In this document: positions 3,697-60,178 of the stretch, one piece after another
How the letters are laid out: each line of letters begins with the position of its first letter
Position numbering within the stretch: the first letter of the stretch is position 1
Source of the DNA: a virus
DNA: 64,000 nucleotides
IMG/VR virus record: IMGVR_UViG_3300050139_000358
Coordinates: 1-64,000 of that record
Direction: 5' to 3' (one strand)
The notes under the pieces: generated by a model
Database searches by the model: none
What the model was told of the DNA's origin: nothing
Seen by the model: the letters and a program-made list of their open reading frames with translations, nothing else
Program-made: the position numbers and the translations under genes

Positions 3697-3720
3697 GATG
3701 TTCCTAGTTAATTTAGCGAA

Positions 3721-3748: not shown

Positions 3749-3753
3749 AGCGA

Positions 3754-4446: not shown

Positions 4447-4448
4447 GG

Positions 4449-7763: not shown

Positions 7764-8145
7764 TTGTATCTCCATTTAGGTACTCGAACTCAATTCGAGT
7801 AATGATCGTTTCAGGCGTGCAGCCCTTATGGCTTGCGCAGAACATCGAAACGAATTCTGACGGCCAACAATAGGACGGATGATCTGCAAATCCTTCGAGC
7901 GCACATTCGGCGAATCCGTAATCTGTATCGTCTGTCATCTTGCATAGCGGTTCTCGCCGAATTCCGATCACGCGAATTGGCCCGCGTAGTGGCTCAATCT
8001 TTTCACCTGGCTTGAGCCCCATGCACTTGCGCACGGGACGCAACATGTCGCCAGGTTTAAGATTCAGCCAGCCGAGGCGGCGAGTGACCGTTTTTGATTC
8101 ATCCATGATCTGGGTTGTTGTCATGGAAAAACTCATGTTTCTCAT
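7756..8145 (-). CDS. ASCH-like phage protein
   Basis: 129 residues matching a common phage family with an ASCH/PUA-like beta fold: [40 protein letters not shown], then [11 protein letters not shown] and [13 protein letters not shown] folds often bind RNA or modified nucleotides; the role in phage is unknown. The start has GAGGG upstream and overlaps the previous stop. The 3' end overlaps the next gene by 8 bp. Confidence 0.8.
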
Positions 8146-28938: not shown

Positions 28939-29757
28939 ATGGAAACCCCAGTTATTCGCTACAACCTCAAAGACCGTGGCCGCAAGCATGTCGGTCAAGA
29001 GCGCAATTTCAACATCAGGGCGATTTGCGACGCCATCAACAGCCCGGCGTGCCAGGAGCGCGTATCGACGCGAGGAATGGCCGGGTACTACGGCCACATG
29101 CCGCGCATCCGCTATGGCATGAATCCAGTTGAAGGGGTAATCGACGGCGGCAAGTACGTTCCGGTCGAGCCAGCCTTTGTGACCACCTACCTGAAGGCGG
29201 ATTACGACGGCAATGTGGAGCACCGGGCAGAGTTCCTTGATACCACCGCAGGTAGGCTGGCGGCGAAGCTGTTTGACGGGAAGATGGGCGGGTTTTCAAC
29301 CGCAATCGACACGTCAAAGCCTGAGTTTTTCGGGCTTGACTACGTTCTGGAGCCCAATTTCGTCAAAAACTCCTATCGCGGCATCGCGCTGGATGACATC
29401 GGCGGCATGACTTACGATGATGTGTTCTCAGCTGAACAGAATGAGCAGGCGCAAAGCATGATTGTGCTGCTGGATAGCGTCAACGCAGAGCGCGAAGCCA
29501 CCGGAGCCGTCATTGAGCGCCTGCAAGCCGAAAACGAGCAGCTTATTTCGATGCTTGCCAGCAAGGGGGTCGATGCGGTATCCGTGCTGGATTCCGTTTC
29601 TATTATGCCGGTCGCCGTCTCTGTTGATGCAGCTGAGCGCATGAATCGCGATGCCAAGCTCTTCATGGGAGCCGATTTGCCCGCGTTTATTGAGCCGGTG
29701 GAGCCAAAACAGTCCGATCCGCTCTATGACCGGCTGCTTGGCAAGTTCACCCGGTAA
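28939..29757 (+). CDS. Probable head maturation protease/scaffold
   Basis: 272 residues. The N-terminal two thirds (GMNPVEGVIDGGKYVPVEPA, AAKLFDGKMGGFSTAI, GLDYVLEPNFV) resemble prohead-protease-type proteins; the C-terminal part has a short coiled coil (NAEREATGAVIERLQAENEQ) as in a fused scaffold. Position after terL and before the capsid gene supports this. AAGGAG precedes the ATG. Catalytic residues were not assigned. Confidence 0.5.
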   Translation: METPVIRYNLKDRGRKHVGQERNFNIRAICDAINSPACQERVSTRGMAGYYGHMPRIRYGMNPVEGVIDGGKYVPVEPAFVTTYLKADYDGNVEHRAEFLDTTAGRLAAKLFDGKMGGFSTAIDTSKPEFFGLDYVLEPNFVKNSYRGIALDDIGGMTYDDVFSAEQNEQAQSMIVLLDSVNAEREATGAVIERLQAENEQLISMLASKGVDAVSVLDSVSIMPVAVSVDAAERMNRDAKLFMGADLPAFIEPVEPKQSDPLYDRLLGKFTR

Positions 29758-32956: not shown

Positions 32957-33088
32957 TTGGGCGTGGGCATGCTTTGTAAACACGGAAAACCCCCCGTTTC
33001 GGATATTTCCTCACTTTCATAATGCCACCTGAGTCAGCTACATGGCTGGCGTTTCCAGTGTTTGAACTTTCCGAAAAGGACAATTGAT

Positions 33089-34753
33089 ATGACCAAGCGC
33101 ATCCATCAGGATTACTTCAAGCGCGAAACCGCCGAAGTAGCCACTTTCATCGACAACCTGAAGGACAATGCCGTTAAGGCTGGCACCTTCGATTCTGCCG
33201 CTGCCGCCGATTTCATGGCATCAGCAGGAAACCAAAGCACGGGCGTGAAGATTCCCGACAATCTTCAGGCTGTTCTGGATGAAGTGAAGGGCGACGGCGC
33301 TGCCATCGTTACCCGCGCCATCCTCGACGGCGTTAATGCCTATGAATCGCAACACGGCAGCGCTGCTCCGGCTGACGTGATCGAACAAGCGTTGCATCTG
33401 GCCTACGCGACCACTGACGGTGCGCGTCGCAAGTACAGTCTGGATTCTGCAAACAGCAACGCATCTGATGCGATGGGTTTGCAACCGAACCGCGCAGTTG
33501 TGGCGATTCTGTCCGCGATGGGTGATGCAATTCCGTTCGCGCACTATCTGCCAGCTGACATCGGTTCGAATGAAGCAGTTCTGGCAATCATGAGCCACAA
33601 CGCCGGTAGCACCTACGGTCGTTATGCTCAAGGCGGCCTGATGGATGGCTCGTTGTCCGGCGATTCGTATGTGTCGTCTTCGCGCATCAATAAATCGATG
33701 CCTGTTGTAACCACCGGCGCTGTTACCGGCGCGCTGACCTCGATTCAGGACACTGACGAAACCTGCGCAGGCGGTGTAACTGTCAAGCTGTTGCGTGGCC
33801 GTTCGCTGGTTTATGTGAATGGCGTAGTTGCAGCCAAGGAAGTTGACACAACCGGATCCGGCAACTCCACAGTGAGCGGCATGATTACCGTCGCTGGCAC
33901 CAGCTACAGCATCGGCGGAACGATCAACACCGACACCGGCGTTTACGCGCTGACTACCACCCCGGCATTGCCGATCACCGTTCCTGTCGTCGTGGAAGGC
34001 TTCATCGACTACGAGCGTTCGCCTGAATTGACCCCATCCATCATCACTGCGGTCAATACCTACAAGCTGCATGCGAAACCATGGCGCGTTACCACAAGCC
34101 AAACCATCGACAGCCGCACTCAGATGGCGAACGAACTGGGACTCGACCCCTACAGCGAAAGCGTCATCGCGATTCAGGCGCAGTTTGCCAACGAACGCCA
34201 TTACGAAGTGCTGGCCAAGGCCCGCCGTCTGGCTGCCAACAACCAGTCCGATTTCGACTTCCAGTGGGCAGCCCGTTCCGCACAGTTGAACCGCTCGCAA
34301 ATCTGGCTGGACTTCGCGTCCGTGCTGGGTGCTGCGTCTCAACAAATGGCGATCGATACCATGAACCACGGTATCACTCACCTGTATGTTGGCAAACGAC
34401 TGGCTGCTCAGCTGATGGGCCTGCCGCGTGAAGTGTTCGAACCGTCCGGTGTTGCAGAGCGTCCTTGCATCTTCCGTATCGGTCGTTTGTTTGGTCGTTA
34501 CGAGGTGTACTACACACCAAAGGGCGTTACCGAGACTTCGACTTCCGGCCAGGTGTTGTGTATCGGTCGTGCAACCGACGTAACACGCAACCCGTTCATC
34601 CTGGGCGATGCAGTTCCTCCAACAGTGGTTCCGTTGGCAGTCGGTGCAGACTTGCGTCAAGGTGCAGGCTTCTATGCCCGCAACTTCACGGCAGTCAACC
34701 CGAACGCTCAGTCGTCACTGGGTTGTGCGCTGATCAACGTCATCAACAACTAA
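33089..34753 (+). CDS. Major capsid protein
   Basis: 554 residues, probably HK97-like: a helical N-terminal extension (KRIHQDYFKRETAEVATFID), central beta-rich insertion (VTGALTSIQDTDETCAGGVT, Gly/Thr-rich 220-320), then the P-domain spine-helix region (GLDPYSESVIAIQAQFANER) and late strands (RLFGRYEVYYTPKG). It is long for the fold, because of the insertion. AAAGGAC precedes ATG 33089. Its own transcription unit and strong codon bias (CGT, CTG) fit a highly expressed virion protein. Confidence 0.85.
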   Translation: MTKRIHQDYFKRETAEVATFIDNLKDNAVKAGTFDSAAAADFMASAGNQSTGVKIPDNLQAVLDEVKGDGAAIVTRAILDGVNAYESQHGSAAPADVIEQALHLAYATTDGARRKYSLDSANSNASDAMGLQPNRAVVAILSAMGDAIPFAHYLPADIGSNEAVLAIMSHNAGSTYGRYAQGGLMDGSLSGDSYVSSSRINKSMPVVTTGAVTGALTSIQDTDETCAGGVTVKLLRGRSLVYVNGVVAAKEVDTTGSGNSTVSGMITVAGTSYSIGGTINTDTGVYALTTTPALPITVPVVVEGFIDYERSPELTPSIITAVNTYKLHAKPWRVTTSQTIDSRTQMANELGLDPYSESVIAIQAQFANERHYEVLAKARRLAANNQSDFDFQWAARSAQLNRSQIWLDFASVLGAASQQMAIDTMNHGITHLYVGKRLAAQLMGLPREVFEPSGVAERPCIFRIGRLFGRYEVYYTPKGVTETSTSGQVLCIGRATDVTRNPFILGDAVPPTVVPLAVGADLRQGAGFYARNFTAVNPNAQSSLGCALINVINN

Positions 34754-41071: not shown

Positions 41072-41416
41072 ATGACTGACATTCGCATTGATTCGTTTTT
41101 GATGGTACTGGCAATGGCTTACCTTGGCGCATTTGCTCACTGGTTCAAAATGAAGCGCGCCAAGCGTGTGATGGGGACGTTCTTTGATTACCTGATCGCG
41201 GATTATCCTGGGCGCTCGGTGGCTACCGGATTCGCCATTGTCGCAGCGGCCTGGCTGTCTGCCACGTCCGGCACGGCTGACTTGATTAACCCGCAATTGC
41301 TATGGGCATCGCTGGTCGCTGGCGTGCTCAATATTCAGAGCGTAAACGGCGTGATGGTGGCAATTGCGGTTGGGTATGCGCTGGACAGCGGAATCAACAA
41401 AGGAGGTGACCAATGA
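41072..41416 (+). CDS. Holin-like membrane protein
   Basis: 114 residues with about three hydrophobic segments (FLMVLAMAYLGAFAHWF, TGFAIVAAAWLSATSG, LLWASLVAGVLN...VMVAIAVGYAL). The size, place after the endolysin, and GGAAGG ribosome site suggest a holin. It overlaps the nuclease gene by 4 bp. Confidence 0.7.
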   Translation: MTDIRIDSFLMVLAMAYLGAFAHWFKMKRAKRVMGTFFDYLIADYPGRSVATGFAIVAAAWLSATSGTADLINPQLLWASLVAGVLNIQSVNGVMVAIAVGYALDSGINKGGDQ

Positions 41417-42066
41417 AAATTGCCATCGCCCTTATTTTTGCGCTGTTCGCACAGTTTTCTTATGCCGACTGCCCGCAATTCTATCCGCTGGGCCGGGTTG
41501 TCGCTGTTCCTGATTCGGTTGAGCTCTGCAACAGCTTCTACGCAGTCAAATACGACGCCGCACGCCATGAGCCGATTATCTCGGTCGAGAAATTCCGCTC
41601 CGGTGCTCACCCAGAGCGCCTGAATGACTTTCACCCTGATTTACGACTCGACACAGCGACGCGCGCCGAAAAGGCAGACTACTTGCACTCTGGATTTGAC
41701 CAGGGCCACATGACGCCAGCGGCAGACTCTACCAGCGCAGAAGAAATGCACGACACCTTCCTATTGTCGAATATGACCCCGCAAGAGCCAACGCTGAACC
41801 GCCGGTCATGGCGAATGCTTGAGATCCATGTGCGCCAGATTTCCCCGGACTATGTGGTGACGGGAGCAATTTATCAGGAATATCCAGCATTCATAGGCGC
41901 TCATCATGTTCCGGTTCCGCTCGGGTATTACAAGATGATCTGGAAGGACGGGGTAACGACAGCGTGGTATGCGGACAACATACCGAATGCCGATGTTAGG
42001 CCGTCAACTGTTGATACGATCGAGCAGCTGTCCGGCCTTAAATTTCCACGATACGAGGTGAATTGA
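41413..42066 (+). CDS. Secreted DNA/RNA non-specific endonuclease
   Basis: 217 residues. A signal peptide (MKIAIALIFALFAQFSYA) precedes an EndA/NUC1-type nuclease with the motif DQGHMTPAAD (family DRGH) and later NMTPQEPTLNRRSW carrying the metal-binding Asn. The enzyme should act in the periplasm. In a lysis cassette this is unusual: it may degrade DNA released at lysis or outside, or exclude competing phage DNA. Overlaps the spanin gene at TGATG. Confidence 0.88.
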   Translation: MKIAIALIFALFAQFSYADCPQFYPLGRVVAVPDSVELCNSFYAVKYDAARHEPIISVEKFRSGAHPERLNDFHPDLRLDTATRAEKADYLHSGFDQGHMTPAADSTSAEEMHDTFLLSNMTPQEPTLNRRSWRMLEIHVRQISPDYVVTGAIYQEYPAFIGAHHVPVPLGYYKMIWKDGVTTAWYADNIPNADVRPSTVDTIEQLSGLKFPRYEVN

Positions 42067-45401: not shown

Positions 45402-45896
45402 ATGAGCAAAAATCTGTTATTCAGTTTTGAAGAAATGGGCAGCAAAAGCGATGGAGCGACAAAGAAGCTGGTGAGCTACTTCTCGCGCGCCGGGAATAAT
45501 GTGGTACAGGGCGATGTTTCGCCCAGCGTAAAGCGGTCTTCCGGGATCAGCTACCGGGAAATGACGCTGACCTTCGCCGACTCGCAGAATGTCATCATGC
45601 GCATCAAGCAAAGTGGCGATATCTTCCAGGTGCTGCTGAACGGCAAGACGTTACCGATCAAGAACCAGGACGATCACGTCAAGGCAATTGCCGAGGTTGC
45701 TCAGGCTATGGATGCCGGGCGCACCAAGTTCCAGAAACTGCTTGCCGCCATTAAGACCAAGCCGCCGGCAGGAATCCTCACGACTGCACCGAGAATGGAA
45801 CAGGTATTCACTGAAAAGCGTGATGCGCTGAAGTCCGCCATTGCCGCAGTGCGCGAAGAAATAGCCCGCCTGGCCGTGTCCACAGCGCCAGCGTAA
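45402..45896 (+). CDS. Small companion of the polyvalent giant proteins
   Basis: 164 residues (MSKNLLFSFEEMGSKSDGAT, REMTLTFADSQNVIMRIKQS), alpha/beta with a helical C-terminus. It sits 49 bp before the DarA-like gene, where small antirestriction-locus partners occur. The DdrA/DdrB/Hdf type of role is only a positional guess. Confidence 0.6.
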   Translation: MSKNLLFSFEEMGSKSDGATKKLVSYFSRAGNNVVQGDVSPSVKRSSGISYREMTLTFADSQNVIMRIKQSGDIFQVLLNGKTLPIKNQDDHVKAIAEVAQAMDAGRTKFQKLLAAIKTKPPAGILTTAPRMEQVFTEKRDALKSAIAAVREEIARLAVSTAPA

Positions 45897-45945: not shown

Positions 45946-48900
45946 ATGACCTCCGACGCCACTTTCCTGCATATCGAAACCGCTGCACACGGCGGCGCAT
46001 TCGGGCATAACCCAATTCCAGAACCGACCGAGGCGCAATGTCAGGCCGGTAACTACAAGATGGGCCGTGTCAGTCTGTACGGACTGCCTATCGCTATCGA
46101 ACAGCCGCGCGGAACCTACCGTACCGGGGTTGATGCCAAGACCGGAAAGCGATGGTCAAGCCGCATGGCGGCGCACTACGGCTATATTTCCGGCACGAAA
46201 GGCAACGACGGTGACGGCGTTGACTGCTTCGTCGGCTTCTACCCACAGTCAGAGATTGCCTATGTAGTTAATCAGAACGTAGGTGGTCGCTTCGATGAAC
46301 ACAAAATCATCCTGGCCTATCCAGACGAAGAGTCTGCACGCCGAGCCTATCAAGATAGCTACGAACGCGGCTGGAATGGGCTGGAAAGCATCGTCTCCGC
46401 ATCAATTTCACAACTTAAATGGTGGCTCAAGCATGGCGACATGCGCCAGCCGCTGCGTGCTGAAAACCTCCCTCACGAAGGACTTGAAACCATGACCAGA
46501 AAAACGCAATGGAACAGCGACGCGCTGCCCTACGATCAAACAATTGACCAGGTGCTTTACGACATCCGTCGCGCCGATGCCGGAGAAAGCCTGCTGCTTG
46601 ATTCGGTGAGCATCAAAGACATCATCGAGGACTCTGAGGGTGCGCTGGCGTTCGATGCTCTGGTAACTCCCTATGCAAAGCTGGAACGCAAGATGGAAGT
46701 GCTCAATGGCGTCATGGAGCGCACCGGTCAGGAGGTCAAGCCTGTTGCCATGCAGATCACCGACCCGTTCAGGCAGCGCGGTGTAGCGAACGTGGCGGCG
46801 ATTTTCGAGCTTTCCGACGGTCAAACCGTTTCGATCTACTTCCACAACCCGGATGTGACGCCGAACAAGATGGCCGGCACAGATGAGGTCATTTCGTGGA
46901 AATGGCTGCTGAACAAGAAGGATATCACCATCGTTGTTGCTCCTGAGCGCGGCGAAGACTTGAACATCCGCGAAGTGGCCAGACGCATCATGAAGCTGGC
47001 CGAGAAGAACAGCGCGGCATTCCAGCGCGCGAATGGGAGACGCGCAGAGACCATGCAGCGCATTGAGAGCCTGAAGGAAGAAACGGCCAGCCTTGAAAAG
47101 GAACTGGAGAGCGCCCAGCGCGAGCTGGAGGTAGCGAAGCAACAGGCTGAGGACAGTGCCGTGGCAAACCACTACTCGCAGGTTATCTTGAACAACCTGG
47201 TTGAAAGTTTTGGGTGGGCAGTTGCGAGCCCTGGGCAGTCGGTAAAAAAGGACGTTGGCGGCGGAGAGACGGGCGGCGAGTTGAATCCAACCGGATCGCG
47301 TGAGGTTTATGGATCGTTTGATGCTCCCCGTAATCGCTACTTGGCGCTGCAAGTTGGCTTCGATGAGATTTTCAGCATTGATTGCCGCGACCGGGACACA
47401 AAAGAGGTATCTGAGGAATTTGATTCCCGTGTGCGTGATTGGTCGGTCAGTACGGCCAAGCCTGTTGCGGATGTTGTTGGAGAGACAGCGCAGCAAGTTC
47501 CCGCTGAAATTGACCCGACCGGCCCCGAAGGTTACGCCCAAGTGATGGCCGATGAAGCACTGCAATTGAAGTGGCAAGATCGCCTTGACGCATTCTTCCA
47601 GGGGCGCATCATCGATGTGCGCAACGCATTGCGTGAGCTTGGCTGGAATGATGACGGAAGTAAGCCGATGCAATCAGGCGCTCTCAAGAAAGGAGAGTAC
47701 GAGCTTGCCCCGCTGTTCAAACACGTCGGCGCGGGCCGGAATGTCGTCGGAATCAACTATGAGATCACGGGTGTTATCGGGTTCTTCATGAGCGATAGCC
47801 TCACGCTCACGGCCAATGAGTTAGCGGAGCGAATCAACATGGGGATCCCGGCTAGTCTTTCCATTCCCGTGGCCGACCTGACCTACCACGATGACGGAAT
47901 GTTTACCACCTTCCTACCAAACACCAAGGCGGGCGAAGACGCATGGCACGTCATGGCCGAGAACGATGGGACTGGCAAAGTGCTGACCATCCATGCCGCT
48001 GTCGTTATCAGCCAGTTACGCGACAAAGGCTACACCGTAGCTGATAGGCCGACAACCAGCATGAGCGACATAGCTGATGATGATTTGCTTGCCGAGTTGG
48101 CGCAGAAAACTGACGAGCAGGACAAGATTAGCGGGCCCGGCAGTTCAGGTGTCGTTAACTACTACGATGCGTCCGACTATGTTGTCGAGCACTTCCTTGG
48201 AAAAAAACAGTCCGATGTCATGATTTTCTCGATGATCGACGGTGGAAAGTTGCTCCAAGCAAAAGCGGCAAAGGACACGAAGTCTGGAATTCCGCGTATG
48301 ACCGAACAAATGTCAGCGGAGGCGGCTGCACAAAATCCAGACTCAGACGTGTCTGTTTCGGTATTCCGTTCCGGTGATAACGAAACAGCTTCAAAACTCC
48401 TGAAGGCGAAGGGTTTCACCATCGACTACACGCCGAAGCAGGAGCAGGAAGTGACGGCCCCGGTTGAAGACAAGTCCGCCATCGAGCAGCCCCTGATCGA
48501 CGCCTACATCAAAGCATGGGGAACTGAGGCAGAGAAGATTAACGCCGCTGTGGCCGCCGTGAATTGGGACGGTATCACTGACAACACAAGTGCCAGCGCA
48601 GAAGAAATGAAGTTGCGCAGCGCGGTGAGCGCGGCGAAGAACATCATTCCGGCGCGTGATGCGCTTGAGTCCGCCGGTATCAAAACATGGGACAGCCGCC
48701 TTGCCAATATTCCAGAGACGCCTGAGTTCAAGGCGCACAGCGCGGCGATTGGCGCATACCGCGCTGCCCAGGACAAGATGCTGGCAGTTGCCAAAGAAAA
48801 ACTAAGCGAGGCCGGAATTGCGGAACTCGCCGCGCTGCCGGCCGATGCTCCGCTGGAAGATGTTGCCAAAGCCATTTACAGGAAGCACGGCATAGACGTT

Positions 48901-50628
48901 GGAACTCGCAGTGACTTCGTTGCCAAAGTCGTGACAGCCATTCATGAAAAGCAAGCCGGAATGCTGCGCGACATCCTCGGGAACACAGGTAATGACGCAA
49001 GCCAAGAGATTTTCGAGCGCCACACCGGAATGAAGCTCGCAAAAACAAAGCGCGACCGGCTTGTGCAGATCGATGAATGGCTTGGCATCACACCCGAACA
49101 GCGCGCCGAAAAGGATGCTGCCAAAGATGCAGCATGGCAGGCCAGCAAGCTCGAAGAGGGCGTAAAGGACTCATGGGGCTGGCTGAAGAGCATGAATGTG
49201 CGCGATGGTGCTGGAACTATTGACGGGCAGCAATACCTGTTGCGCCAAGCTGCCGATGGATACAACGAGGTTGGAACAAGTAAGAAGGGCGCGGCCGTAA
49301 CTTACGGACTGAAGAAAGATAACGCCCTGCGTTACGTTAAAAACAAGAGCTTCAACGCCTTCCTGAAAGCCGCTCAGGCATTCGGCGGGCTGAAACAGGC
49401 GTTTGATTTGGTGGGTGCTGTTGTTCCTGTAGCCGAACCAAAAACGCCAGTGCAGATTGTGGATGCGGCCTATCAATTCTCCAGCGCGACAGACGAATTC
49501 AAGGAATGGCTGGCCGACTCTGTTGCCAAGGAATCGTATTCGCCATTCGTTTCCGCGAAGGCAATGGATGAGGCATCCCGGCGCAACGGCGCATCAATCG
49601 AATGGGGTCTATTCGGCGGGGCGGCCTTGGATGGCGTGAATGAAGATCAGGAAGACACGGATGATGAAGTTGATGAAAGCGAAATCGGCGTAACTTTTGA
49701 GGCGGAGGATATTGCGCTGGATTCTGTCACCCTGGATGGGATCGACCAAGACGGCTATGTCGGCAAGGTAAGCAAGGGTGGCGATACCGTGGGTCGTGTG
49801 GATATTGGCGACGACGGCAAGGTAATGGTGTTTGTTGGCGCAACTGGTGATAAGCGCGTTGTGTTCGCATCCGGTGTTGAAGCGATGTATTCAGATGGGG
49901 ACGCAGAAATGATGATCGATGCACTTTTCACGGTTGATGCGAATGCGGCTGAAGCTGCCCAGGTACAGGATAAAAACGACGCCAAGGATGATGTAGCAAA
50001 GGCTATGGAAACGCTTCGCCCGTTCATGTCCGTATCGCAGATGAAGGCCGTTTCGGACGCAATGCGCGGAGAGGAAAAACAGTTCTTCATCGACAAGATG
50101 GTGGAAATGGCCGGGATCATCAGCGCCATGCCAGAGACCTACGGACAGGATGGCAAGGGCGATGCTGCCATTGCGTATCTGCACTACTTCATGGGCGGCA
50201 TGGACTGGTATATCACCGAGAAGGATATGGAAGCCGAGCAGTTGCAGGCATTCGGTCTGGCTGACCTAGGCCATGGTGGCGAGCTTGGTTATATCAGCAT
50301 CGTTGAGCTGGTGGGCAGTGGCGCAGAGCTGGATTTCCATTTCCAGCAAAAGACTATCGGCCAGATTACCGGCAAGGGTAGCGATGATGGCGGACAACAG
50401 GAAAAGCAGGAAGCAGCGCCCGCAGAAGATCCGCAAATGACTGTCGACCGCGCGCTGTTCCAGTCAATCATCGACAACACAGTGCCGGATATCCTGGATG
50501 CGTCGTACATCGACCAGCTGGAAGCGGCCTACATGCGCCACATCGGAAATGCCGAAATGGAGGCGCTGTTTGTGTCCGCCGTGAATGCCTATACCGCAGC
50601 AGAGCTTGCCGCGTCAGCCACTCTTTAA
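45946..50628 (+). CDS. DarA-like polyvalent giant protein (InPase, DarA_N-like, DUF2958 regions)
   Basis: 1560 residues. Residues about 10-185 match the inorganic-pyrophosphatase-like domain of phage polyvalent proteins (QCQAGNYKMGRVSLYGLPIA, AAHYGYISGTKGNDGDGVDC). Residues about 265-370 resemble DarA N-terminal (ELSDGQTVSIYFHNPDVTPN, SWKWLLNKKDITIVVAPERG). Then a coiled coil (about 365-410), an acidic Asp/Glu tract (about 1225-1245) and a C-terminal DUF2958-like region (MDWYITEKDMEAEQLQAFGL, HGGELGYISIVELVGSGAEL). P1 DarA is packaged and shields DNA from type I restriction; the same is inferred here. No clear ribosome site precedes ATG 45946. Confidence 0.82.
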   Translation: MTSDATFLHIETAAHGGAFGHNPIPEPTEAQCQAGNYKMGRVSLYGLPIAIEQPRGTYRTGVDAKTGKRWSSRMAAHYGYISGTKGNDGDGVDCFVGFYPQSEIAYVVNQNVGGRFDEHKIILAYPDEESARRAYQDSYERGWNGLESIVSASISQLKWWLKHGDMRQPLRAENLPHEGLETMTRKTQWNSDALPYDQTIDQVLYDIRRADAGESLLLDSVSIKDIIEDSEGALAFDALVTPYAKLERKMEVLNGVMERTGQEVKPVAMQITDPFRQRGVANVAAIFELSDGQTVSIYFHNPDVTPNKMAGTDEVISWKWLLNKKDITIVVAPERGEDLNIREVARRIMKLAEKNSAAFQRANGRRAETMQRIESLKEETASLEKELESAQRELEVAKQQAEDSAVANHYSQVILNNLVESFGWAVASPGQSVKKDVGGGETGGELNPTGSREVYGSFDAPRNRYLALQVGFDEIFSIDCRDRDTKEVSEEFDSRVRDWSVSTAKPVADVVGETAQQVPAEIDPTGPEGYAQVMADEALQLKWQDRLDAFFQGRIIDVRNALRELGWNDDGSKPMQSGALKKGEYELAPLFKHVGAGRNVVGINYEITGVIGFFMSDSLTLTANELAERINMGIPASLSIPVADLTYHDDGMFTTFLPNTKAGEDAWHVMAENDGTGKVLTIHAAVVISQLRDKGYTVADRPTTSMSDIADDDLLAELAQKTDEQDKISGPGSSGVVNYYDASDYVVEHFLGKKQSDVMIFSMIDGGKLLQAKAAKDTKSGIPRMTEQMSAEAAAQNPDSDVSVSVFRSGDNETASKLLKAKGFTIDYTPKQEQEVTAPVEDKSAIEQPLIDAYIKAWGTEAEKINAAVAAVNWDGITDNTSASAEEMKLRSAVSAAKNIIPARDALESAGIKTWDSRLANIPETPEFKAHSAAIGAYRAAQDKMLAVAKEKLSEAGIAELAALPADAPLEDVAKAIYRKHGIDVGTRSDFVAKVVTAIHEKQAGMLRDILGNTGNDASQEIFERHTGMKLAKTKRDRLVQIDEWLGITPEQRAEKDAAKDAAWQASKLEEGVKDSWGWLKSMNVRDGAGTIDGQQYLLRQAADGYNEVGTSKKGAAVTYGLKKDNALRYVKNKSFNAFLKAAQAFGGLKQAFDLVGAVVPVAEPKTPVQIVDAAYQFSSATDEFKEWLADSVAKESYSPFVSAKAMDEASRRNGASIEWGLFGGAALDGVNEDQEDTDDEVDESEIGVTFEAEDIALDSVTLDGIDQDGYVGKVSKGGDTVGRVDIGDDGKVMVFVGATGDKRVVFASGVEAMYSDGDAEMMIDALFTVDANAAEAAQVQDKNDAKDDVAKAMETLRPFMSVSQMKAVSDAMRGEEKQFFIDKMVEMAGIISAMPETYGQDGKGDAAIAYLHYFMGGMDWYITEKDMEAEQLQAFGLADLGHGGELGYISIVELVGSGAELDFHFQQKTIGQITGKGSDDGGQQEKQEAAPAEDPQMTVDRALFQSIIDNTVPDILDASYIDQLEAAYMRHIGNAEMEALFVSAVNAYTAAELAASATL

Positions 50629-50640
50629 GGGAATTTGAAC

Positions 50641-53600
50641 ATGAATGCACGAGTGATTTTTGACGATGCCAGCGCAATGAACGCCCTGGCAAATATGAAG
50701 CTGTTGCGCGAGCTGAAGACGGTTAATTCTGACATCGGAAGCTTGGGCGATGGTGCGCTGGCCGCAATGAAGCGGCTGAAGTTGGCTGCGCGCGCAAAGC
50801 AGATCCGCATTGAGCTGGGAGGCAAGGATAAAGCGCAAACGGAGAGTGAACAGGCTGTGGAAGAAAGCGCTGATTCTGTCAAAAAATCGGCATCAAAGCG
50901 CCAGAAGGACAATGACGCCGCAATCGAAGCGCTGCGTAAAGTCAAATCTGGCGAGGCAGACAGCAAAGACCCTGCCATTCGTGAAGCGCTGAAGGGATAC
51001 AGCGGCAGCGGTGGAGGCCTGAAAACGGCACAGGGCACATCGGGTAGCCCGCATGAATACTACACGCCTGAACCAGTCGCCAAGGCGATGTGGGACTTGC
51101 TGGATGGCCTAGGCTTCACAGGCGGAAAGGTGCTAGACCCAAGCTCTGGCATGGGCGTGTTCGCGCGCACCAAGCCTGAGAGCGTGGCGATCGAACAGAT
51201 TGAACTGGATTCCGTCTCGGGTGAAATAAACGGCCTGCTGAACGACAGCGCTACGGTATCGACCCGAGTGGCATCCTTTGAGGAAGTCGCCGCCGGGTCT
51301 GATGATGAAACCTTTGATGCGGTTGTCACCAATGTCCCGTTTGGCGACAAAGCCATGCGCGGCGCCCACTGGCGTAAAGACAAAAAGTACCAGAACGCCA
51401 ATTTGCAGGAATATTTCATCCTGCGCGGCCTGGAGAAGATTCGACCCGGCGGCTTTGCGGCTTTCATCGTGCCGCCGTCCGTGGTGGCCGGTAAAGGAGG
51501 TAAAGGCATCAAGTTGCGCAACTCGGTATCGATGGCAGCAGAGTTCATTGGCGCGTACCGCCTTCCCAATATGGTGTTTGACGAAGCCGGTGCGGATACC
51601 ATCACCGATATCATCATCCTGCGCAAGCACGGTAAGGACAACAAGCTCAAAATTGACGAGCTGGCGCAGCAAAACGCCGCCATGCTGACCGAGGCGAACG
51701 TGATCTGGCCTGACTTTGTGGACGGGAACTACTTCAAGCTCGAAGGAAAGCGCTTTCAAATCGGAGAAACTACGACTGGGAAAGGCCGCTTTGGCGAGGT
51801 CGAAAAGGTCGCGTTCACCGGCACCATTGGTTCTATTGCCGCGTTACTCAAGCCATTCCCCAAGTCCAGCAGAATCAATTGGGAGCTGCTGGGAGCCGTG
51901 GAAACCGCCCCGATCATCTACTCCGAAGGCGATACCCTGTTTTCAGGCGATGCGATGCTGCAAATGGTGGACGGCAAGCTGGTTCCGGTGGAAGGCAACC
52001 TGCAAAACGACGATGTGGAGGCGATCAATCTGATGGCCCAGTTCACGTCACCACTTGATGCTATCAACCAGGGATTGACGCTTGAAAACGCCAACCGTGC
52101 GCTGGAAAATGAAGAAACATGCGGTCGTTTGGGAAGTGTGCCGCGCTGGATTGTTTCGGCCCAGCGCGCCGCGAATGCTGCAGTCAAGAATCAGGGTGAA
52201 TGGTTTGATGCCATCATGGCAGGAATGGCAGTGCAGGAATTCGCCCAGGCAGGCGACAAGGAGTCGCGCAACTACGCCGAAGCCTACCCGGAACTGAGCA
52301 AGGCATTGGCGCGAGTGCAGGGGTATTCCAATAAGCAGGCCGGTATTGGCGGAGAGCTGGTAGCTGAGGCGCTGCAAAATATCGCCGTGGCACGCAAAAA
52401 AGGCGCATTCACTGCCTGGTGGACTGGAAATATTGCCAAGGACGAGGCCGTGGTGCTGACTGTCAGCCAGTCCTATGCAAAGATCAAACTGGATAGTGAA
52501 GACGATACCGGTTTTGTGCCGGCAGAAGAAATGCGCAAGGCGTTTGCCGACTTCGACCCGCTCAACGATGACCAGTGGTGCGTATCGCCGGACGGAACCG
52601 GGGTAATGAGCGCCGAAGATTACTATTTCGGCAACTATGCCGAGTTCTTGGCCCGCGCCGAGCAGGACATGGATGATGCGACCGACCCGGAGATCAAGGA
52701 GAAGTTGCTGCGCCAGCACGCCAAGGCCAAAGAGCGCATCACGCTGGTTGACCCGTCGCGTATGCGGTTTTCACTTGAAACTGCGTTTGTGTCACAGGAA
52801 GACAAGGCGGAATTCGTCAAGCAGTATGTGTCGGCAGATATTGTTCTGGCTGACGGGAATGACGGTAAAAAGACGTTCAAGTACAACGGATCAAACCCCG
52901 GCAGCCGAGATTCTGCCGATGCCGTGCGCAACATCAAGACGCTGCGCCGCTTCGCCATTTACCTGAACAACAAAACGATCACTACGGGCACTGGCGATAA
53001 GGCCACCGATAACCTTCAGGAAGAGCAAGCCCTGCTAGACTCAATCAAGGGAATGGTGCAATCATCATCCGCGCAGTTTGATGCATGGTGCAAGTCCAAT
53101 GATGACGTAGTGGGCAGCATCCGCAACAAGCTCAATGCTCCTGAAAACCTGCGCTTTGTTGAAACCCCAAACTTCGCCCCGGTGGACATCCCAAACTGGA
53201 ATCCGGCCTGGGTACCGCATGGCTACCAATTCGCCGCCGTGCGCCGGTTCTCCAAGCGTTTCTCGGGTATTTTGGGGTTTGATGTTGGCCTGGGTAAAAC
53301 CTTGTCGGCGCTTGCCACCGTCCAATACGCCCAAAGCATCGGGGCCAAAAAGAAAACCATCTTCGTTGTCCCCAGCTCGGTACTGACCAACTGGAAAAAG
53401 GAAACCGGCAAAGCCTATAAGGACACCGGAGATTGCTTATTTGTTGGCCTGACGGTGGATGAGAGCGGCGATGCCAAGTACAGCTCTGGCTCAGTTGATG
53501 CCGATCTGAACGTGATCCGCGAAAACCGCCATTCCAAGATTTTCATGACTTACGAGACCCTGATCCGCATTCCGTTGCGCGAAGACACCTTGCAGGGCTA

Positions 53601-56600
53601 CAAAGACTACCTGCTTTCCAATGATGACTCATTCACCAAGGCGGTTGAAGAGGGAGCCAACGAGAAGACGCGCGACGTAATTTCAGCAGAGCAGGCAGTT
53701 GCGGCCGCTCTGGAGTCCGGCAAGAAGTCTGGCAGCGTGCCGTTCTTTGAAGATATGGGGGTTGATTCGCTGGTAGTGGACGAATGCCACAGCTTCAAGA
53801 ACTCAAAATCTTTCAGCAGCGAGTTTAAGTCAACCAAGTTCGTCGCAAACCCGAACAGCTCGCAGCGCGGCATGGATATGCAGGCCAAGTGCTGGTACAT
53901 CCGTGGCATTACCGGCAGCAATGACGGCATCATGGCGCTGACGGCCACGCCTGTGACCAATTCGCCAGTAGAGATTTATTCCATGTTGTCGCTGGCCATC
54001 GGCGAGAAAGAGCTGAATTCAATGTGCGGCTGCACTGGCGCCGACTCATTCATGATGAACACCTGCGACGTAGAGAACCGGGACGAGGATGATCTGACTG
54101 GCGCGCCAAAGAATCAGCGCGTGCTCAAGGGTGTTGCCAATCTGGATATTCTGCGCCGGGTGCTGGACTCGGCGGCCATGATTGAAACACCGGCCACGGT
54201 GGCGGCCAAAGGGATCATCATTGAAGTCCCGGAAGCCGAAGAGGTCATGAGCAAAATCGAGATGTCGCCTGAAGACACGGCCATCCTGAAGGACATCAAG
54301 AACGACTATATGGACGCCGCAGCCAAGAAGAAGGCGAAGGCTGCGCTGTCTCAGCGCGAGGCCATCATGGCATCTCCGTTCAACGCGATCCGCAACATGA
54401 CCAAGCTGATCACGGACAAAGAACTGTACCAGGGCAGGTTTGCGTTTGGGTTTGACCCAAAAGAACGGGCCAAGGCTGAATCTGCCGTTGTTACATTCAA
54501 CAAGCTCAAAATCACGGAAGAGTGCAAGGAATACGAACTCCCGTTCGGGATAGACACCACCAGTATGAAGTCGAAGATGGTGATCGACAAGGAATCCGGC
54601 AACGAGGCGATGGTATTTTACGTCCCGGTGATGGCTACCATCGAAGGTGGCAAGATCATCCTGCCGGCCGTTGACTACAAGACGCATGATCGGTTCATTG
54701 CCATTATCGACAAGGCTGGTATCGGGTTAACTGCGCAGGCCAGCCCAAAGACACAGGCGTTACTGGTAAACCTGAAAAACGAGAATGCTCACCCGCGCTG
54801 GAAGCCAGCTAAGCAGATTGTGTTCTGCGACGAACTGGCGCTGCATCACAAACTGAAGCTGCTGATTGCACATGAAACCGGCATCGCGTCGTCCAAAATC
54901 AGCATCGTGAATGCAAAATCGGTATCCCCCGATGAAATTCAGGGTGTGCAGGATGGGTTCAACGCGAATGAAGACGAAAACCTGTATCAGATCATTATTG
55001 CCAACAAAAAGGCCGAGGTCGGTATCAACTTGCAGCAGGGTACGCAAGCCATCCACCACCTGACTATCGGCTGGACACCGGATAGCATTCACCAGCGCAA
55101 CGGGCGCGGCGTGCGCCAGGGCAATAAGGTAGAAACACCGGTGATGATCTACCACTATGAGGCCAACGGCACATTTGACGCCTACAAGCGCCGCCTGGTA
55201 AGCGTCAAGGGTGACTGGATCAACAGCTTGATGGACAAGGATTCTGAGCACGTTACTATCGAAGGCGACTTATCGGCGGAAGATTACGCCCGCATGACCT
55301 CTTTAGTTGGTGACTCAAATGCTATGGCCCAGTTCAACGAAGACATGGCGAAAAAGGCCAAGGCGCAAGTAGCCGACTCGGCCAAGATCATGCAGGTCAA
55401 TGCAATCTCTGTGGCTCAGGGCCGGAAGAAGTGGCTGGACAAGTACGATGGCGATCAGGTCGGGTTCACAAACTGGCTGAGAACAAAAAAATCTGCCATG
55501 GCCGCGCTCGATTCGGATGCAGCCAAATTGCAGGAGCGTCTGGATAAAACAGAGTCCGCCGACATGGCAAAACGCTGCGCGACAAAAATTGCTGAATTGC
55601 AGAGAAAGCGCCAGGCGATCGCGGATACCATTGTGGGCATCACTATGCCAAGCTATGGAACCGTCAGCGCAGATAGCGCGCCAGATTCAGTCGCGGCAAT
55701 CAACTGGAAGAAGGATGTGTCCATCAACCGCAAGATGCTGGAAGAGGCTCAGGCGGCCTGCGCCATGCGCGCGACGCAAGGATACAATCAGGAAACCATT
55801 GCCAAGCTGGATAGCGGAGACGCCATGATCGTAAACGGCAAGATCCTTGCTGAAGGCGATTTTGTCATTGCCGATGGCGTGCCGGGATTGATCAATATCA
55901 AGCAGGGCAACTACCGCGAAAGCGCCTCACTTCAATTTATCTACTCCGGCAATGGCGAAATACAGGCGAAACCGATTGCCGGAATGACAATCAACCTGCA
56001 CGGAACTATCGGCAGCGATGATCGCAGCGAGATACTAAAAATGCTCGTTGAGTTGGATGAAACTAGCATTGCGGCCGGCAAAGAAAATCTGTTTGCAAGG
56101 TACTCCGGGGATGTGCGCAAGGCATTGCGCACAGCAATTCCTTCGTTGTGGATTCAGACAAGGAAGCAGTTCGGTGCGGATGATGACGGCTGGATTGTCG
56201 CGCCAAACTTCCCGCTGGTGATGCCGGATGATGCGGAGGGAGAGTTCGCGGCAGCGATTCTCAAGGCGCAGCAAGGTATTATTGAGTTCAAATCGATAAA
56301 CGGCTGGAACCACTCGTTCCGATTCACAGACTCGCGCTTGCAAGGCGAAAGTGCCGGGCGCACGCCATGGGGCGCAGTTGCAACATGGATGATCGCCAAC
56401 GGCAAGACGATGACGGTCACGGAGCTTGATCACCTTTCAGGAGACGGCGAGTTTGTGCGCGAGTTCTCCGAAGCCTTTGTGGCTGGGATGCCGGGCATGA
56501 TCGAAAAATCTTCCAACATCACAGAGTTTGATGTGGCGATGACTGGCTGGGCAAAATCAACTTATCCGTGGCTGACAGAGCTGGATGACGCAAGCAAAAT

Positions 56601-57414
56601 GGAAGAGTCATTCGGCCTTTCGCAGTATGTCGAAAAGGCCAAGAAAAAACTGGATGACGGATCGGTGAAATATGATTTTGTCGTGCCAAGTAAAGAGTTG
56701 CTGAGATCGGCTGTTTCCTCCGATATTGGTGCCACCATTGTCAAGGCATTTGCCGACGGAGCAATGAATGATGAGCTGATAAAATTCGAGGAATCCGGTT
56801 ACAAGATACGCATTGAAGAAATCGAAAGATACGGCAGAAAGGAACTGGCGGACGCATTCAAGCAAGTCATTGTCGATGCAGTTGGCGGAAGGCTTGATGG
56901 CGAATATGTCGATCTGACCGGCTCTTCATTCGAAGAGGCTGTCCGCAGCGCGGTTGGCGCCGGGAAGGGGGCCGTCCTGAAAATCAAGCCAGACGACACC
57001 ATCTACCCAGCGACTGGAATTCATCAAGCCGTGCTGGCCTTCCGCGCGAAGAGGCAGCAAGAAAGCCTTGGGATTGATGTTGATGGCCTGCTTGCTGCAA
57101 TTCAGGCGCACGCTGATGTGAATACTGCTGCCGTCTCGATGAAGGACTATGCAAAGCTGGCAGACCGCTTCACCGGATCGTTCATGTACCACGCCGGGAA
57201 ATATATTCAGGTGAGCATGCGCTATGGAAGCGACCTGCAGAAGAATATCAGCGATAAGGTTGTCGGGCTCGATGGCCGCGTCTTCGACAAGACTACAAAA
57301 GATTGGCTTGTTAGTCTTGTCCCTGATAAATTCAGCGACGGGAAGCCGGTAGCCGACATCGCTGCATTTGCCAAGTTCGTCGGAATCGACGCAAACCAAT
57401 TCAAGAAGGGGTAG
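50641..57414 (+). CDS. DarB-like giant N6-adenine methyltransferase / SNF2 helicase
   Basis: 2257 residues, close to the length of P1 DarB. An N6-adenine methyltransferase lies at about 135-355: motif I VLDPSSGMGVFA and motif IV TNVPFGD (NPPF-type, here NVPF). SNF2-type helicase lobes follow: Walker A DVGLGKTLSA (from residue 881), DECH in VVDECHSFKN (near 1046), and motif VI QRNGRGVRQGN (near 1485). The last 700 residues are helical and unassigned. DarB is injected with the DNA and protects it in cis from type I restriction. AAGGGAA precedes ATG 50641; the upstream DarA-like gene is 12 bp away. Confidence 0.92.
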   Translation: MNARVIFDDASAMNALANMKLLRELKTVNSDIGSLGDGALAAMKRLKLAARAKQIRIELGGKDKAQTESEQAVEESADSVKKSASKRQKDNDAAIEALRKVKSGEADSKDPAIREALKGYSGSGGGLKTAQGTSGSPHEYYTPEPVAKAMWDLLDGLGFTGGKVLDPSSGMGVFARTKPESVAIEQIELDSVSGEINGLLNDSATVSTRVASFEEVAAGSDDETFDAVVTNVPFGDKAMRGAHWRKDKKYQNANLQEYFILRGLEKIRPGGFAAFIVPPSVVAGKGGKGIKLRNSVSMAAEFIGAYRLPNMVFDEAGADTITDIIILRKHGKDNKLKIDELAQQNAAMLTEANVIWPDFVDGNYFKLEGKRFQIGETTTGKGRFGEVEKVAFTGTIGSIAALLKPFPKSSRINWELLGAVETAPIIYSEGDTLFSGDAMLQMVDGKLVPVEGNLQNDDVEAINLMAQFTSPLDAINQGLTLENANRALENEETCGRLGSVPRWIVSAQRAANAAVKNQGEWFDAIMAGMAVQEFAQAGDKESRNYAEAYPELSKALARVQGYSNKQAGIGGELVAEALQNIAVARKKGAFTAWWTGNIAKDEAVVLTVSQSYAKIKLDSEDDTGFVPAEEMRKAFADFDPLNDDQWCVSPDGTGVMSAEDYYFGNYAEFLARAEQDMDDATDPEIKEKLLRQHAKAKERITLVDPSRMRFSLETAFVSQEDKAEFVKQYVSADIVLADGNDGKKTFKYNGSNPGSRDSADAVRNIKTLRRFAIYLNNKTITTGTGDKATDNLQEEQALLDSIKGMVQSSSAQFDAWCKSNDDVVGSIRNKLNAPENLRFVETPNFAPVDIPNWNPAWVPHGYQFAAVRRFSKRFSGILGFDVGLGKTLSALATVQYAQSIGAKKKTIFVVPSSVLTNWKKETGKAYKDTGDCLFVGLTVDESGDAKYSSGSVDADLNVIRENRHSKIFMTYETLIRIPLREDTLQGYKDYLLSNDDSFTKAVEEGANEKTRDVISAEQAVAAALESGKKSGSVPFFEDMGVDSLVVDECHSFKNSKSFSSEFKSTKFVANPNSSQRGMDMQAKCWYIRGITGSNDGIMALTATPVTNSPVEIYSMLSLAIGEKELNSMCGCTGADSFMMNTCDVENRDEDDLTGAPKNQRVLKGVANLDILRRVLDSAAMIETPATVAAKGIIIEVPEAEEVMSKIEMSPEDTAILKDIKNDYMDAAAKKKAKAALSQREAIMASPFNAIRNMTKLITDKELYQGRFAFGFDPKERAKAESAVVTFNKLKITEECKEYELPFGIDTTSMKSKMVIDKESGNEAMVFYVPVMATIEGGKIILPAVDYKTHDRFIAIIDKAGIGLTAQASPKTQALLVNLKNENAHPRWKPAKQIVFCDELALHHKLKLLIAHETGIASSKISIVNAKSVSPDEIQGVQDGFNANEDENLYQIIIANKKAEVGINLQQGTQAIHHLTIGWTPDSIHQRNGRGVRQGNKVETPVMIYHYEANGTFDAYKRRLVSVKGDWINSLMDKDSEHVTIEGDLSAEDYARMTSLVGDSNAMAQFNEDMAKKAKAQVADSAKIMQVNAISVAQGRKKWLDKYDGDQVGFTNWLRTKKSAMAALDSDAAKLQERLDKTESADMAKRCATKIAELQRKRQAIADTIVGITMPSYGTVSADSAPDSVAAINWKKDVSINRKMLEEAQAACAMRATQGYNQETIAKLDSGDAMIVNGKILAEGDFVIADGVPGLINIKQGNYRESASLQFIYSGNGEIQAKPIAGMTINLHGTIGSDDRSEILKMLVELDETSIAAGKENLFARYSGDVRKALRTAIPSLWIQTRKQFGADDDGWIVAPNFPLVMPDDAEGEFAAAILKAQQGIIEFKSINGWNHSFRFTDSRLQGESAGRTPWGAVATWMIANGKTMTVTELDHLSGDGEFVREFSEAFVAGMPGMIEKSSNITEFDVAMTGWAKSTYPWLTELDDASKMEESFGLSQYVEKAKKKLDDGSVKYDFVVPSKELLRSAVSSDIGATIVKAFADGAMNDELIKFEESGYKIRIEEIERYGRKELADAFKQVIVDAVGGRLDGEYVDLTGSSFEEAVRSAVGAGKGAVLKIKPDDTIYPATGIHQAVLAFRAKRQQESLGIDVDGLLAAIQAHADVNTAAVSMKDYAKLADRFTGSFMYHAGKYIQVSMRYGSDLQKNISDKVVGLDGRVFDKTTKDWLVSLVPDKFSDGKPVADIAAFAKFVGIDANQFKKG

Positions 57415-57417: not shown

Positions 57418-57801
57418 ATGACAGACGTATTCAAAATACAGCCCGCTTACATGCGGCAACGATTTGACGAGGCAGCTGCGCAGCTGGGCGATAAGCCCAT
57501 GCTGGGAACCTTTGTCGAGTCAATCCGTAAGATCGTGGCGATTCCGGGAAATTACAAACGCTTCGGCGTGTACTGGTGGGCAGTCAAGCGCATCCTAAAA
57601 TCCAACAGGGTTGACCTTGGCAGCGAAGACTGCGACTGGTTGCGTGACGAATACACCATCACCACTCAGAAGGGCGCAATCGATCAGGAAAGCACTTTGC
57701 TGGCTGCGTGGATATTCGCCGAGGACAATACCGTTGCGCCAGAAACCGAGTTTGAGATTGATGGTCAGGTTTGGATAATCGACGATCCAGATATGGCGTA
57801 G
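57418..57801 (+). CDS. Small protein after the DarB-like gene, unknown
   Basis: 127 residues (FVESIRKIVAIPGNYKRFGV, YWWAVKRILKSNRVDLGSED), acidic C-terminus. Three bases after the giant gene, so co-translated. Probably an antirestriction-locus or virion accessory protein. The 47 bp beyond contain GCGGAAA-A-TTTCCGC, without a T run. Confidence 0.65.
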   Translation: MTDVFKIQPAYMRQRFDEAAAQLGDKPMLGTFVESIRKIVAIPGNYKRFGVYWWAVKRILKSNRVDLGSEDCDWLRDEYTITTQKGAIDQESTLLAAWIFAEDNTVAPETEFEIDGQVWIIDDPDMA

Positions 57802-58621: not shown

Positions 58622-60178
58622 ATGCCTATCTACAACGCACCAATTAAGCAAACATCGGGCGTTTTTTCCAAGCTGGGCATATCTGCCAAGCGTTGGGTGT
58701 CCTCATTTATTACTCCATCCCATCAGATAAAGGAATCTGATGCCTTCACGTATGGGGCAGGCGGGACTACCATTGCGTCCTTGCTTGGAACGGGAAGACG
58801 TGCGGCACGGTCACGCCAGGCCATCTATGACAAGTGGTCAGAAATGGAATCTGACGCAGTGGTATCCACCGCGCTGCTGTTGCTTGTCACGTCTGCCCTT
58901 GGCGGCCACGAAACAAGCGGCGATCTTGTCTTCATCGAGAAGACCGCAAAAACCAAGGATGACAAACGGCTTTCTGCCATCACGGATGAGATCGCCGCAG
59001 ACCTGACTCAGCTTTTCAACCGGGTCGCATTCCAGATGGCCTATACCGGGTCTGTATTTGGCGATGCCTACGCGCGCATCTACGCTGACGCGCGAGGTGT
59101 GATTGACCTGTACGCAGATGAAATGGTTCGGCCTCCGCTGGTGCAGCCTTTCGAGCGCGGAAGCCGAACAGTTGGCTACGCAGTCTATACCGGGCCGCGC
59201 AATTTCGAGCGGCTTGACGTATCTCAGATGGCGCGGATGAAGATGCCACGCACACAATGGGTTCCGCAATATGGCGTGATCGAAAAAGCGATGCGCCTGG
59301 CAATTACCGAAAACGACATTGATAACCTGCCAATTATGCCCTCTATGGTCGGCGGCTCGCTTATTTACAATGCCGAGGAATCCTATGACAACTTGACGGC
59401 ATCGCTCATCGGTCTGGTCGGACAGCGCTGGCTGGATTCGATTGACGAGCAGATGGTTACGGTCAATCTCGAAAATATGACGCTTGAGCAGCAGGAGCGA
59501 TTCGTCGAATCGGTGAAGGGCATGCTCAGCGCGTCCAAGACCCGCGCCGACGCGGCGGTGAAGAGCGGTCGCCCAATGATGGAGCGCATTCGCCACATCA
59601 TCCCAATTTTCAACGAAAAGCAACTTGCTACAGTGGGCCCAGCCAATGGCGGTCAGCCCGGCCGCGCCGGAAGTATCACCATCGATGACATCATGCTGCA
59701 CGCCAGGATGCTGTCCGGTGCGATCGGCGTCGATCTTTCCATGCTCGGGTTTGCCGATCAGCTGTCCGGCGGGCTTGGAGACGGTGGGTTCTTCCGCGTT
59801 TCTGCCCAGGCCGCCGAGCGCGCGCGCATCATCCGTGTTGCCCTGTCAGATTTTTTCAACCAGGTGATCGACATTCACACCATGCGCCGCTATGGCGTCG
59901 TGTTTCATCCAAGCGAGCGTCCTTGGGTAATCAATTTCTACGGTTCAATCTCTGCCCTTGAGTCAGAGAAGCAGCGCACCCGCTCTGATTCCATGAACGC
60001 AGGAATGTTGATGGTGCAGTCCATGCAGATGATGAAGGACATGGGCGCCACCAAAGAGATCATGGAAGAGTTTCTGACCAAGACCATGATGCTCGACGAA
60101 GATCAGTCCAAATTATTCGCCACAATTGTCGATGCCAAGCCGCCTGAAGGGGCTGGTGGTGGCGGGTTCGGTGGGTAA
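58622..60178 (+). CDS. Portal protein
   Basis: 518 residues with portal features: an N-terminal clip region (WSEMESDAVVSTALLLLVTS), FMAYTGSVFGDAYARIYA-like core, LSGAIGVDLSMLGFADQLSG and a helical C-terminal crown ending in Gly-rich GGGGFGG. It would form the dodecameric head vertex for packaging. Unusually it is 30 kb from terminase and next to tail genes. The ribosome site is weak (GTGGCG). Confidence 0.82.
   Translation: MPIYNAPIKQTSGVFSKLGISAKRWVSSFITPSHQIKESDAFTYGAGGTTIASLLGTGRRAARSRQAIYDKWSEMESDAVVSTALLLLVTSALGGHETSGDLVFIEKTAKTKDDKRLSAITDEIAADLTQLFNRVAFQMAYTGSVFGDAYARIYADARGVIDLYADEMVRPPLVQPFERGSRTVGYAVYTGPRNFERLDVSQMARMKMPRTQWVPQYGVIEKAMRLAITENDIDNLPIMPSMVGGSLIYNAEESYDNLTASLIGLVGQRWLDSIDEQMVTVNLENMTLEQQERFVESVKGMLSASKTRADAAVKSGRPMMERIRHIIPIFNEKQLATVGPANGGQPGRAGSITIDDIMLHARMLSGAIGVDLSMLGFADQLSGGLGDGGFFRVSAQAAERARIIRVALSDFFNQVIDIHTMRRYGVVFHPSERPWVINFYGSISALESEKQRTRSDSMNAGMLMVQSMQMMKDMGATKEIMEEFLTKTMMLDEDQSKLFATIVDAKPPEGAGGGGFGG

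Follow-up and report, generated by a model that had tools for sequence, protein, structure and literature searches.

A modular DarA-type polyvalent protein within a P1-like head gene set

The choice of proteins that P1-like phages pack and inject is the setting of a gene in a 64,000-nucleotide stretch of viral DNA (positions 1 to 64,000 of IMG/VR record IMGVR_UViG_3300050139_000358; hereafter referred to as the window). Its product had been predicted to join InPase-like, DarA_N-like and DUF2958-like regions in one 1560-aa chain. The open reading frame (ORF) lies exactly where it was predicted (45946–50628, plus strand) and encodes 1560 residues from an ATG start; the matching frame on the reverse strand is interrupted by several stops. 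Read on the minus strand, a 421-aa open frame (46408–47673) lies antisense to darA, and we took it for chance. The complete virus record comprises 71,458 bases and thus represents a phage genome or a prophage; a tyrosine integrase at the left edge of the window suggests, by sequence, an integrating phage.

The DarA-type protein and its neighbours

The InPase-like region was readily recovered by the Pfam InPase profile at residues 29–162 (46030–46431, plus strand; E 1.8e-50). Residues E52, R59, Y78, Y80, D88, D93, D117, E118 and K120 were identical in 56 of 56 aligned rows, and D90 was kept in 55. We take these residues to be the metal ligands and catalytic residues, by analogy with the roles assigned in type I pyrophosphatases. 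Because the acidic residues and the lysine are kept across the 56 rows, the domain is likely to be active.

The DarA_N-like region proved equally well defined (residues 235–356; 46648–47013, plus strand; Pfam E 3.8e-48). This predicted capsid-binding part has 41% identity to P1 DarA over 102 aa; the DarA_N profile matches residues 128–208 of P1 DarA, and the P1 DarA structure (PDB 9ukm, chain I) matches residues 278–390 with an E-value of 1.3e-19. It runs into a conserved helix with weak coiled-coil matches in Pfam (residues about 345–410; 46978–47175, plus strand), which is homologous to the start of the helix region of P1 DarA.

The DUF2958-like region held up in part. In this protein, the Pfam match at residues 1406–1456 (E 0.0015) fell short, its score of 19.3 bits lying below the cut-off of 21, whereas phrog_5203 spans residues 1354–1475 with an E-value of 1.6e-20. 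The same module exceeds the DUF2958 cut-off in two relatives, L012 (23.1 bits) and L037 (21.5 bits), a DUF2958 match at E ≤ 0.01 was obtained for 8 of 26 members, and one plasmid homologue carries a DUF2958 annotation. The original prediction had further held that all three families are known from virion-borne anti-defence proteins. For InPase such a role is proposed rather than demonstrated in the accessible text of PMC5512222, and the literature searched yielded no account of DUF2958 as a virion-borne anti-defence family. DUF2958 is mostly a free-standing small phage or plasmid protein.

The HExxH metallopeptidase motif is absent from both DarA and DarB of the window. A copy of P1 DdrB or of its peptidase inside the window DarA was considered and rejected, with no match and no HExxH; a single comparison of the middle module M5 (see below) with DdrB gave a probability of 4.8% and an E-value of 0.0084, a weak result that we did not use. 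The gene product is a DarA-type polyvalent protein, a kind already known, and it fits the phage type of such proteins: its gene lies among the late phage genes, and the single chain contains at least two conflict-type domains.

In the window, hdf, darA, darB and ulx lie side by side. The Hdf homologue, the predicted partner of DarA, is encoded at 45402–45896 (plus strand) and was recognised by phrog_1620 (E 1.3e-39), by chain H of PDB 9ukm (E 4.4e-9) and by P1 Hdf itself (E 1e-11). The predicted DarB-like giant is indeed directly downstream of darA (50635–57414, plus strand, with ATG 50641 as the likely start); it combines an N6 methylase and a SNF2 helicase, and is 27% identical to P1 DarB across about 1600 aa. 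The next gene encodes a Ulx-like protein (57418–57801, plus strand; phrog_1629, E 6.3e-14), for which comparison with P1 proteins gave no match to P1 Ulx itself. The P1 Dar set is present, except that DdrA and DdrB have no genes of their own. The plus strand of the window also encodes homologues of the P1 portal Prt (58622–60178; PDB 9ums, chain C, E 3e-36), the prohead protease Pro (28939–29757; phmmer E 1.9e-11) and the major capsid protein Gp23 (33062–34753; PDB 9ukm, chain A, E 2.8e-18). PADLOC has no models for DarA, Hdf or Ulx; for DarB it reported numerous matches to helicases and methylases, as expected from the domains of that protein.

The neighbourhood recurs among relatives. Of the 55 DarA ORFs for which 2 kb or more of upstream sequence is available, 48 are preceded by Hdf within 6.5 kb, and of the 44 with 4 kb or more of downstream sequence, 32 have DarB downstream. 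In nine of the 12 ORFs without a downstream DarB, a different ORF bearing the helical hairpin described below occupies the DarB place.

Several other features of the window deserve mention in their own right. A diversity-generating retroelement (1547–4476, minus strand) comprises a reverse transcriptase, a bAvd-like gene and a protein of the FGE-sulfatase fold; of the 22 sites at which its two copies, 2703–2824 and 3763–3884, differ, 21 have A in the first, and the FGE-fold gene has the second copy as its 3′ end. A C5 cytosine methylase with an intein-like insert (Hint_2, Intein_splicing) is encoded at 9225–12248 (minus strand), and the lysis cassette includes a DNA/RNA non-specific endonuclease (41413–42066, plus strand; PF01223, E 2.3e-29) flanked by an endolysin and an Rz-like spanin. 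Two phage proteins have C-terminal DnaJ-like domains (7083–7775 and 16855–17952, minus strand), one joined to a DUF5131 fragment and the second below its Pfam cut-off.

Swapped modules and a constant C-terminal tail

Relatives were collected by searching viral contigs with the DarA protein (30 loci) and genome contigs with residues 1–406 (24 loci), and searches with single modules added more. The genome-contig loci are labelled mostly as Beta- and Gammaproteobacteria, including Nitrosomonas, Pigmentiphaga, Burkholderia and Pusillimonas; one locus (L050) is labelled as an Alistipes senegalensis MAG amid these otherwise proteobacterial hosts, possibly by mis-binning. P1-like plasmids also bear InPase-DarA_N proteins, for instance pBVIE05 of Burkholderia vietnamiensis G4, in which a SNF2-related gene lies two genes after the InPase-DarA_N gene. 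The module counts cover 56 complete ORFs whose DarA_N sequences all differ; these ORFs are related and therefore not independent, and they were left from 65 distinct sequences after nine with incomplete ends or a short DarA_N had been set aside. Per-module profiles were run on all ORFs, and DarA_N is present throughout by selection.

The coverage of the window DarA by its relatives falls into blocks. The N-terminal part (residues 1–404) is conserved in most of them. The middle had been described as mostly unassigned, and residues about 410–1340 indeed gave no credible Pfam match; rather than one large region, however, it consists of at least six separable modules, all on the plus strand. M1 (residues 410–512; 47173–47481) is found in a minority of relatives. 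It is followed by M2 (513–610; 47482–47775), an alpha/beta module, and by M3 (640–728; 47863–48129), which has a beta-beta-alpha-beta-alpha order and also exists as a free-standing small phage gene. M4 (735–846; 48148–48483) occurs, besides the window, in L002 only. M5 (847–1165; 48484–49440) is mostly helical and the commonest of the unassigned modules, and M6 (1169–1340; 49450–49965) is split by insertions in several relatives. The DUF2958-like module, M7 (1345–1482; 49978–50391), is mobile and often a gene of its own. The chain ends in a constant C-terminal tail of three helices (CT; 1493–1560; 50422–50625).

Structure prediction, proposed as a check of the original claim, succeeded for M2, M3, M5, M7 and CT, which gave models of high confidence; the M1 model was poor and that of M4 weak. 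A PDB fold search with both models returned no match at E ≤ 0.001, and the best Z scores from VIA-align, 5.9 for residues 1163–1560 and 7.5 for residues 405–1168, are within the range that the tool calls common. No middle module thus obtained a confident match in the fold searches, a result that leaves room for families that did not appear. M3 aligned with the N-terminal domain of T4 UvsW (1rif, chain A; Z 6.4, rmsd 2.9, 58 residues, 14% identity), which we regard as a structural lead from the model and not as evidence of function. M7 aligned weakly (Z under 4) with the SH3-like barrels found in WYL, CarD and EF-P proteins, again without functional weight. A BFVD search matched one viral protein of 84 aa (E 8.9e-5, 44% identity); the listing gives no matched range, and from its length we took it to be a free-standing M3.

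The 56 complete ORFs display 25 module orders. InPase precedes DarA_N in 41 of them, follows it in eight and is absent from seven. The tail, CT (62 aa), is present in 41 of the 56 and ends within six residues of the C-terminus in 40 of these 41, the sole exception being L151. In a group that includes L053, L107 and L116, the domains are arranged as DarA_N-M7-(M2)-InPase-CT, which indicates that domains have moved along the chain and were not merely lost. Relatedness to the window also varies from module to module within a single relative. L001 has 89% identity in M2, 98.6% in CT, 62% in M3 and 64% in M5, and lacks M1 and M4; L002 has 90% identity in M4 but 51% in M3. (The L002 ORF, which is without CT, ends near the contig end and may be incomplete.) Such sharp differences are as expected of recombination. 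Other DarA relatives hold LPD3, LPD1, PBECR1 or PBECR3 predicted nucleases or MutS_I domains. The suggestion that the middle may hold effectors is supported as a possibility, for a region whose contents are swapped by relatives.

Two relatives are unusual in themselves. In the DarA relative encoded at L025:9896–16099, residues 371–451 match MutS domain I (E 1.5e-18), together with a weak PBECR3 match. At L042:5086–7494, InPase and DarA_N are in adjacent ORFs of the same frame with one stop codon position between them, a split that may be either natural or a sequencing error.

Some passengers also occur by themselves. In loci that have neither DarA_N nor Hdf we counted 30 distinct M7 domains, of which 25 are contained in stop-to-stop ORFs of 137–250 aa, and M7 is present in 137 plasmid records. 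M3 forms an 83-aa ORF alone in two contigs; in Pseudomonas phage Milchi it stands among the small genes, and Astolliot gave one more match. This lone occurrence suggests that M3 and M7 are self-contained domains. M5 gave no match in annotated phages at E 0.01. In one phage ORF of 3944 residues without DarA_N (L102:565–12396), M7 is embedded at residues 1812–1944.

The DdrA-like helical hairpin

Profile searches revealed that the first 60 residues of the window DarB, a predicted helical hairpin (50641–50820, plus strand), constitute a motif found on other proteins. After removal of identical copies, the hairpin was counted on 28 DarB ORFs, on 23 ORFs without a long DarB match or a DarA module (among which L034 and L041 are short fragments), and on 10 ORFs that hold a DarA module (M7 in nine, M2 in one). 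The DarB replacements that bear the hairpin are unrelated proteins; they carry LPD1 and in one case PBECR1. In Nitrosomonas-type prophages, a short DarA gene is followed by a gene with an N-terminal hairpin and a metallopeptidase region; in the four tested, phmmer relates this region to P1 DdrB with E-values of 1.9e-12 to 2.4e-14, and all four have the HExxH motif. The third gene of these prophages, whose cargo would be split off from DarA, combines an internal hairpin with M7 and sometimes CT. In such split-system M7 genes the hairpin lies inside the open frame, which runs on upstream, and not at the N-terminus.

The hairpin appears to resemble residues 4–54 of P1 DdrA, a protein of the P1 virion (PMC9024508), with single-comparison hhalign E-values of 3.4e-4 (11 rows) and 0.0019 (32 rows); the DdrA-like family phrog_1855 matched L037 with an E-value of 1.2e-6 but the window DarB with only 0.35. 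Homology to the targeting sequence of P1 DarB (residues 1–30) was also considered; the two align in register, and the hhalign E-value of 0.3 is not significant. A tblastn search with the hairpin of one relative gave no match at E 0.01 in annotated phages. As the Xanthomonas phage Rb1 has the hairpin by profile, tblastn is insensitive for so short a query.

Among 41 loci without DarA_N or Hdf, the hairpin was present in two, L182 and L185, both of which had been fetched by the hairpin search, so that this background is only partly independent. Tail and hairpin may co-occur: three DarA loci (L024, L026 and L094) have neither DarB nor the hairpin downstream and lack CT too; L024 and L026 look closely related, with the same architecture and near-identical gene sizes. 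In the split systems, the absence of CT from the DarA gene has another cause.

A proposed carrier role, its alternatives and known systems

The domain content, operon context, modularity, constant tail and recurrent hairpin described above are, in our judgement, best explained as a whole by a modular DarA carrier of a P1-like myophage, with passengers borne in the head and extras loaded through the hairpin, and we consider this explanation reasonably probable. By homology to P1, DarA_N and the following helix would attach to the capsid from inside as partners of Hdf, and the window DarA is probably virion-borne. The string of interchangeable passengers between this anchor and the constant tail would ride in the head and leave with the DNA. 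On the analogy with P1 alone, the DarA/Hdf coat and the co-packaged DarB may protect the incoming DNA from type I restriction. The passengers would then act on the new host: InPase may hydrolyse pyrophosphate or a related nucleotide, and M3 and M7 may be small counter-host domains that other phages and plasmids use alone. Loading could take place in cis, for passengers that are part of DarA, or in trans via the DdrA-like hairpin, which in the window phage is fused to DarB.

This proposal draws on the P1 head. According to the accessible text of PMC12810830, 55 pairs of DarA and Hdf line the inner capsid wall and touch the DNA, and they are gone from emptied heads; their capsid binding was shown by cryo-EM, and the pair is needed for loading other Dar proteins and also controls head size. 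CT and M1–M6 have no detected counterpart in P1 DarA, and P1 is accordingly no proof that such cargo is tolerated in the head, which counts against the carrier proposal. The same holds for the hairpin having no match in the P1 DarB N-terminus, for its internal place in split-system M7 genes and for the middle modules having no confident fold match. A cut by Pro near residue 70 of P1 DarA has been deduced (PMC12810830). By spacing, we would guess at an equivalent cut in the window DarA between InPase and DarA_N, the profile alignment to P1 DarA starting only at P1 residue 128; if so, InPase would be severed before ejection, a further point against the proposal.

A structural role of DarA is real, as in P1 the share of normal heads drops from about 80% to about 15% without DarA or Hdf (PMC12810830). 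DarA might be mainly a capsid scaffold and size factor, with the modules as filler, spacing or DNA-condensing elements that have no role in the new host. We regard this as unlikely, since M2, M3, M5, M7 and CT are conserved domains with high-confidence models, M3 and M7 occur alone outside DarA, the InPase active site is nearly invariant, and modules are swapped, even for predicted nucleases. The position of darA among late genes would also suit a protein that is made late in infection and whose site of action is the producing cell instead of the virion. This seems very unlikely in view of the presence of DarA, Hdf, DarB and Ulx in P1 virions (PMC9024508, as far as its accessible text goes) and of the label ‘internal head protein’ given to the Rb1 homologue by its depositors, which is an annotation and not a test.

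The passengers might, alternatively, serve superinfection exclusion or host take-over and not anti-restriction, DarA_N being a delivery vehicle only. The PBECR-type predicted nucleases and MutS_I-like domains of relatives fit such roles, as does the fact that phages and plasmids with no Dar genes have M3 and M7 among their small genes. The neighbours Hdf, DarB and Ulx, however, are the P1 anti-restriction set, and the two roles are compatible; we hold this alternative to be quite improbable.

Within the carrier explanation we tentatively consider a two-part loading code, possible though rather doubtful. The DarA anchor and the three-helix tail would accept almost any passenger, and the hairpin would bring passengers that are not fused to DarA, namely DarB, DdrB-like peptidases, LPD1 or nuclease proteins and DUF2958 proteins, possibly by docking on the DarA tail. 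If this were true, hairpin and tail would be sequence tags for finding virion effectors. The large set of natural swaps, in which anchor and tail stay fixed and the hairpin recurs, makes a P1-like loading rule testable and offers a way to list injected effectors. In P1, residues 1–30 of DarB were shown to target cargo to the head, and BLAST found no consensus targeting signal among the Dar proteins, according to the accessible part of PMC9024508.

Phage polyvalent proteins, with DarA_N and InPase among their domains, were described in 2017 (Iyer et al., PMC5512222). They resemble the window DarA in joining several conflict-type domains in one chain, with InPase and DarA-N in the phage-type set; the accessible text of that paper does not describe a fixed tail, module permutations or a shared DdrA-like hairpin. 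More widely, the fixed tail, the changes of InPase-DarA_N order and the hairpin shared with DarB are undescribed in the literature searched, which lay mostly outside subscription journals. The small DUF2958 or phrog_5203 proteins share module M7, which is free-standing there and a passenger here.

P1 DarA (639 aa; PDB 9ukm, chain I) has the same DarA_N and following helix, in the same setting of an adjacent hdf and of DarB, the Ulx family, Pro and Gp23 in one phage. It differs in being without InPase, the modules of the window and CT, which we sought in P1 DarA and did not find. P1 has DdrA and DdrB as separate genes, whereas the window has a DdrA-like hairpin as part of DarB and yielded no DdrB.

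The closest match in the annotated phage collection is the ‘internal head protein’ of Xanthomonas phage Rb1 (PQ569993), and Rb1 is the only annotated phage that matches over much of the DarA length. The Rb1 protein differs from the window DarA in lacking M1, M3, M4 and M5, and between its darA and darB Rb1 has a hairpin on an ORF of its own and a gene for a metallopeptidase, the latter gene sharing PHROG families with the DdrB-like genes. Like the window phage, Rb1 unites InPase, DarA_N, M2, M6, M7 and CT in one protein, with hdf upstream and DarB downstream.
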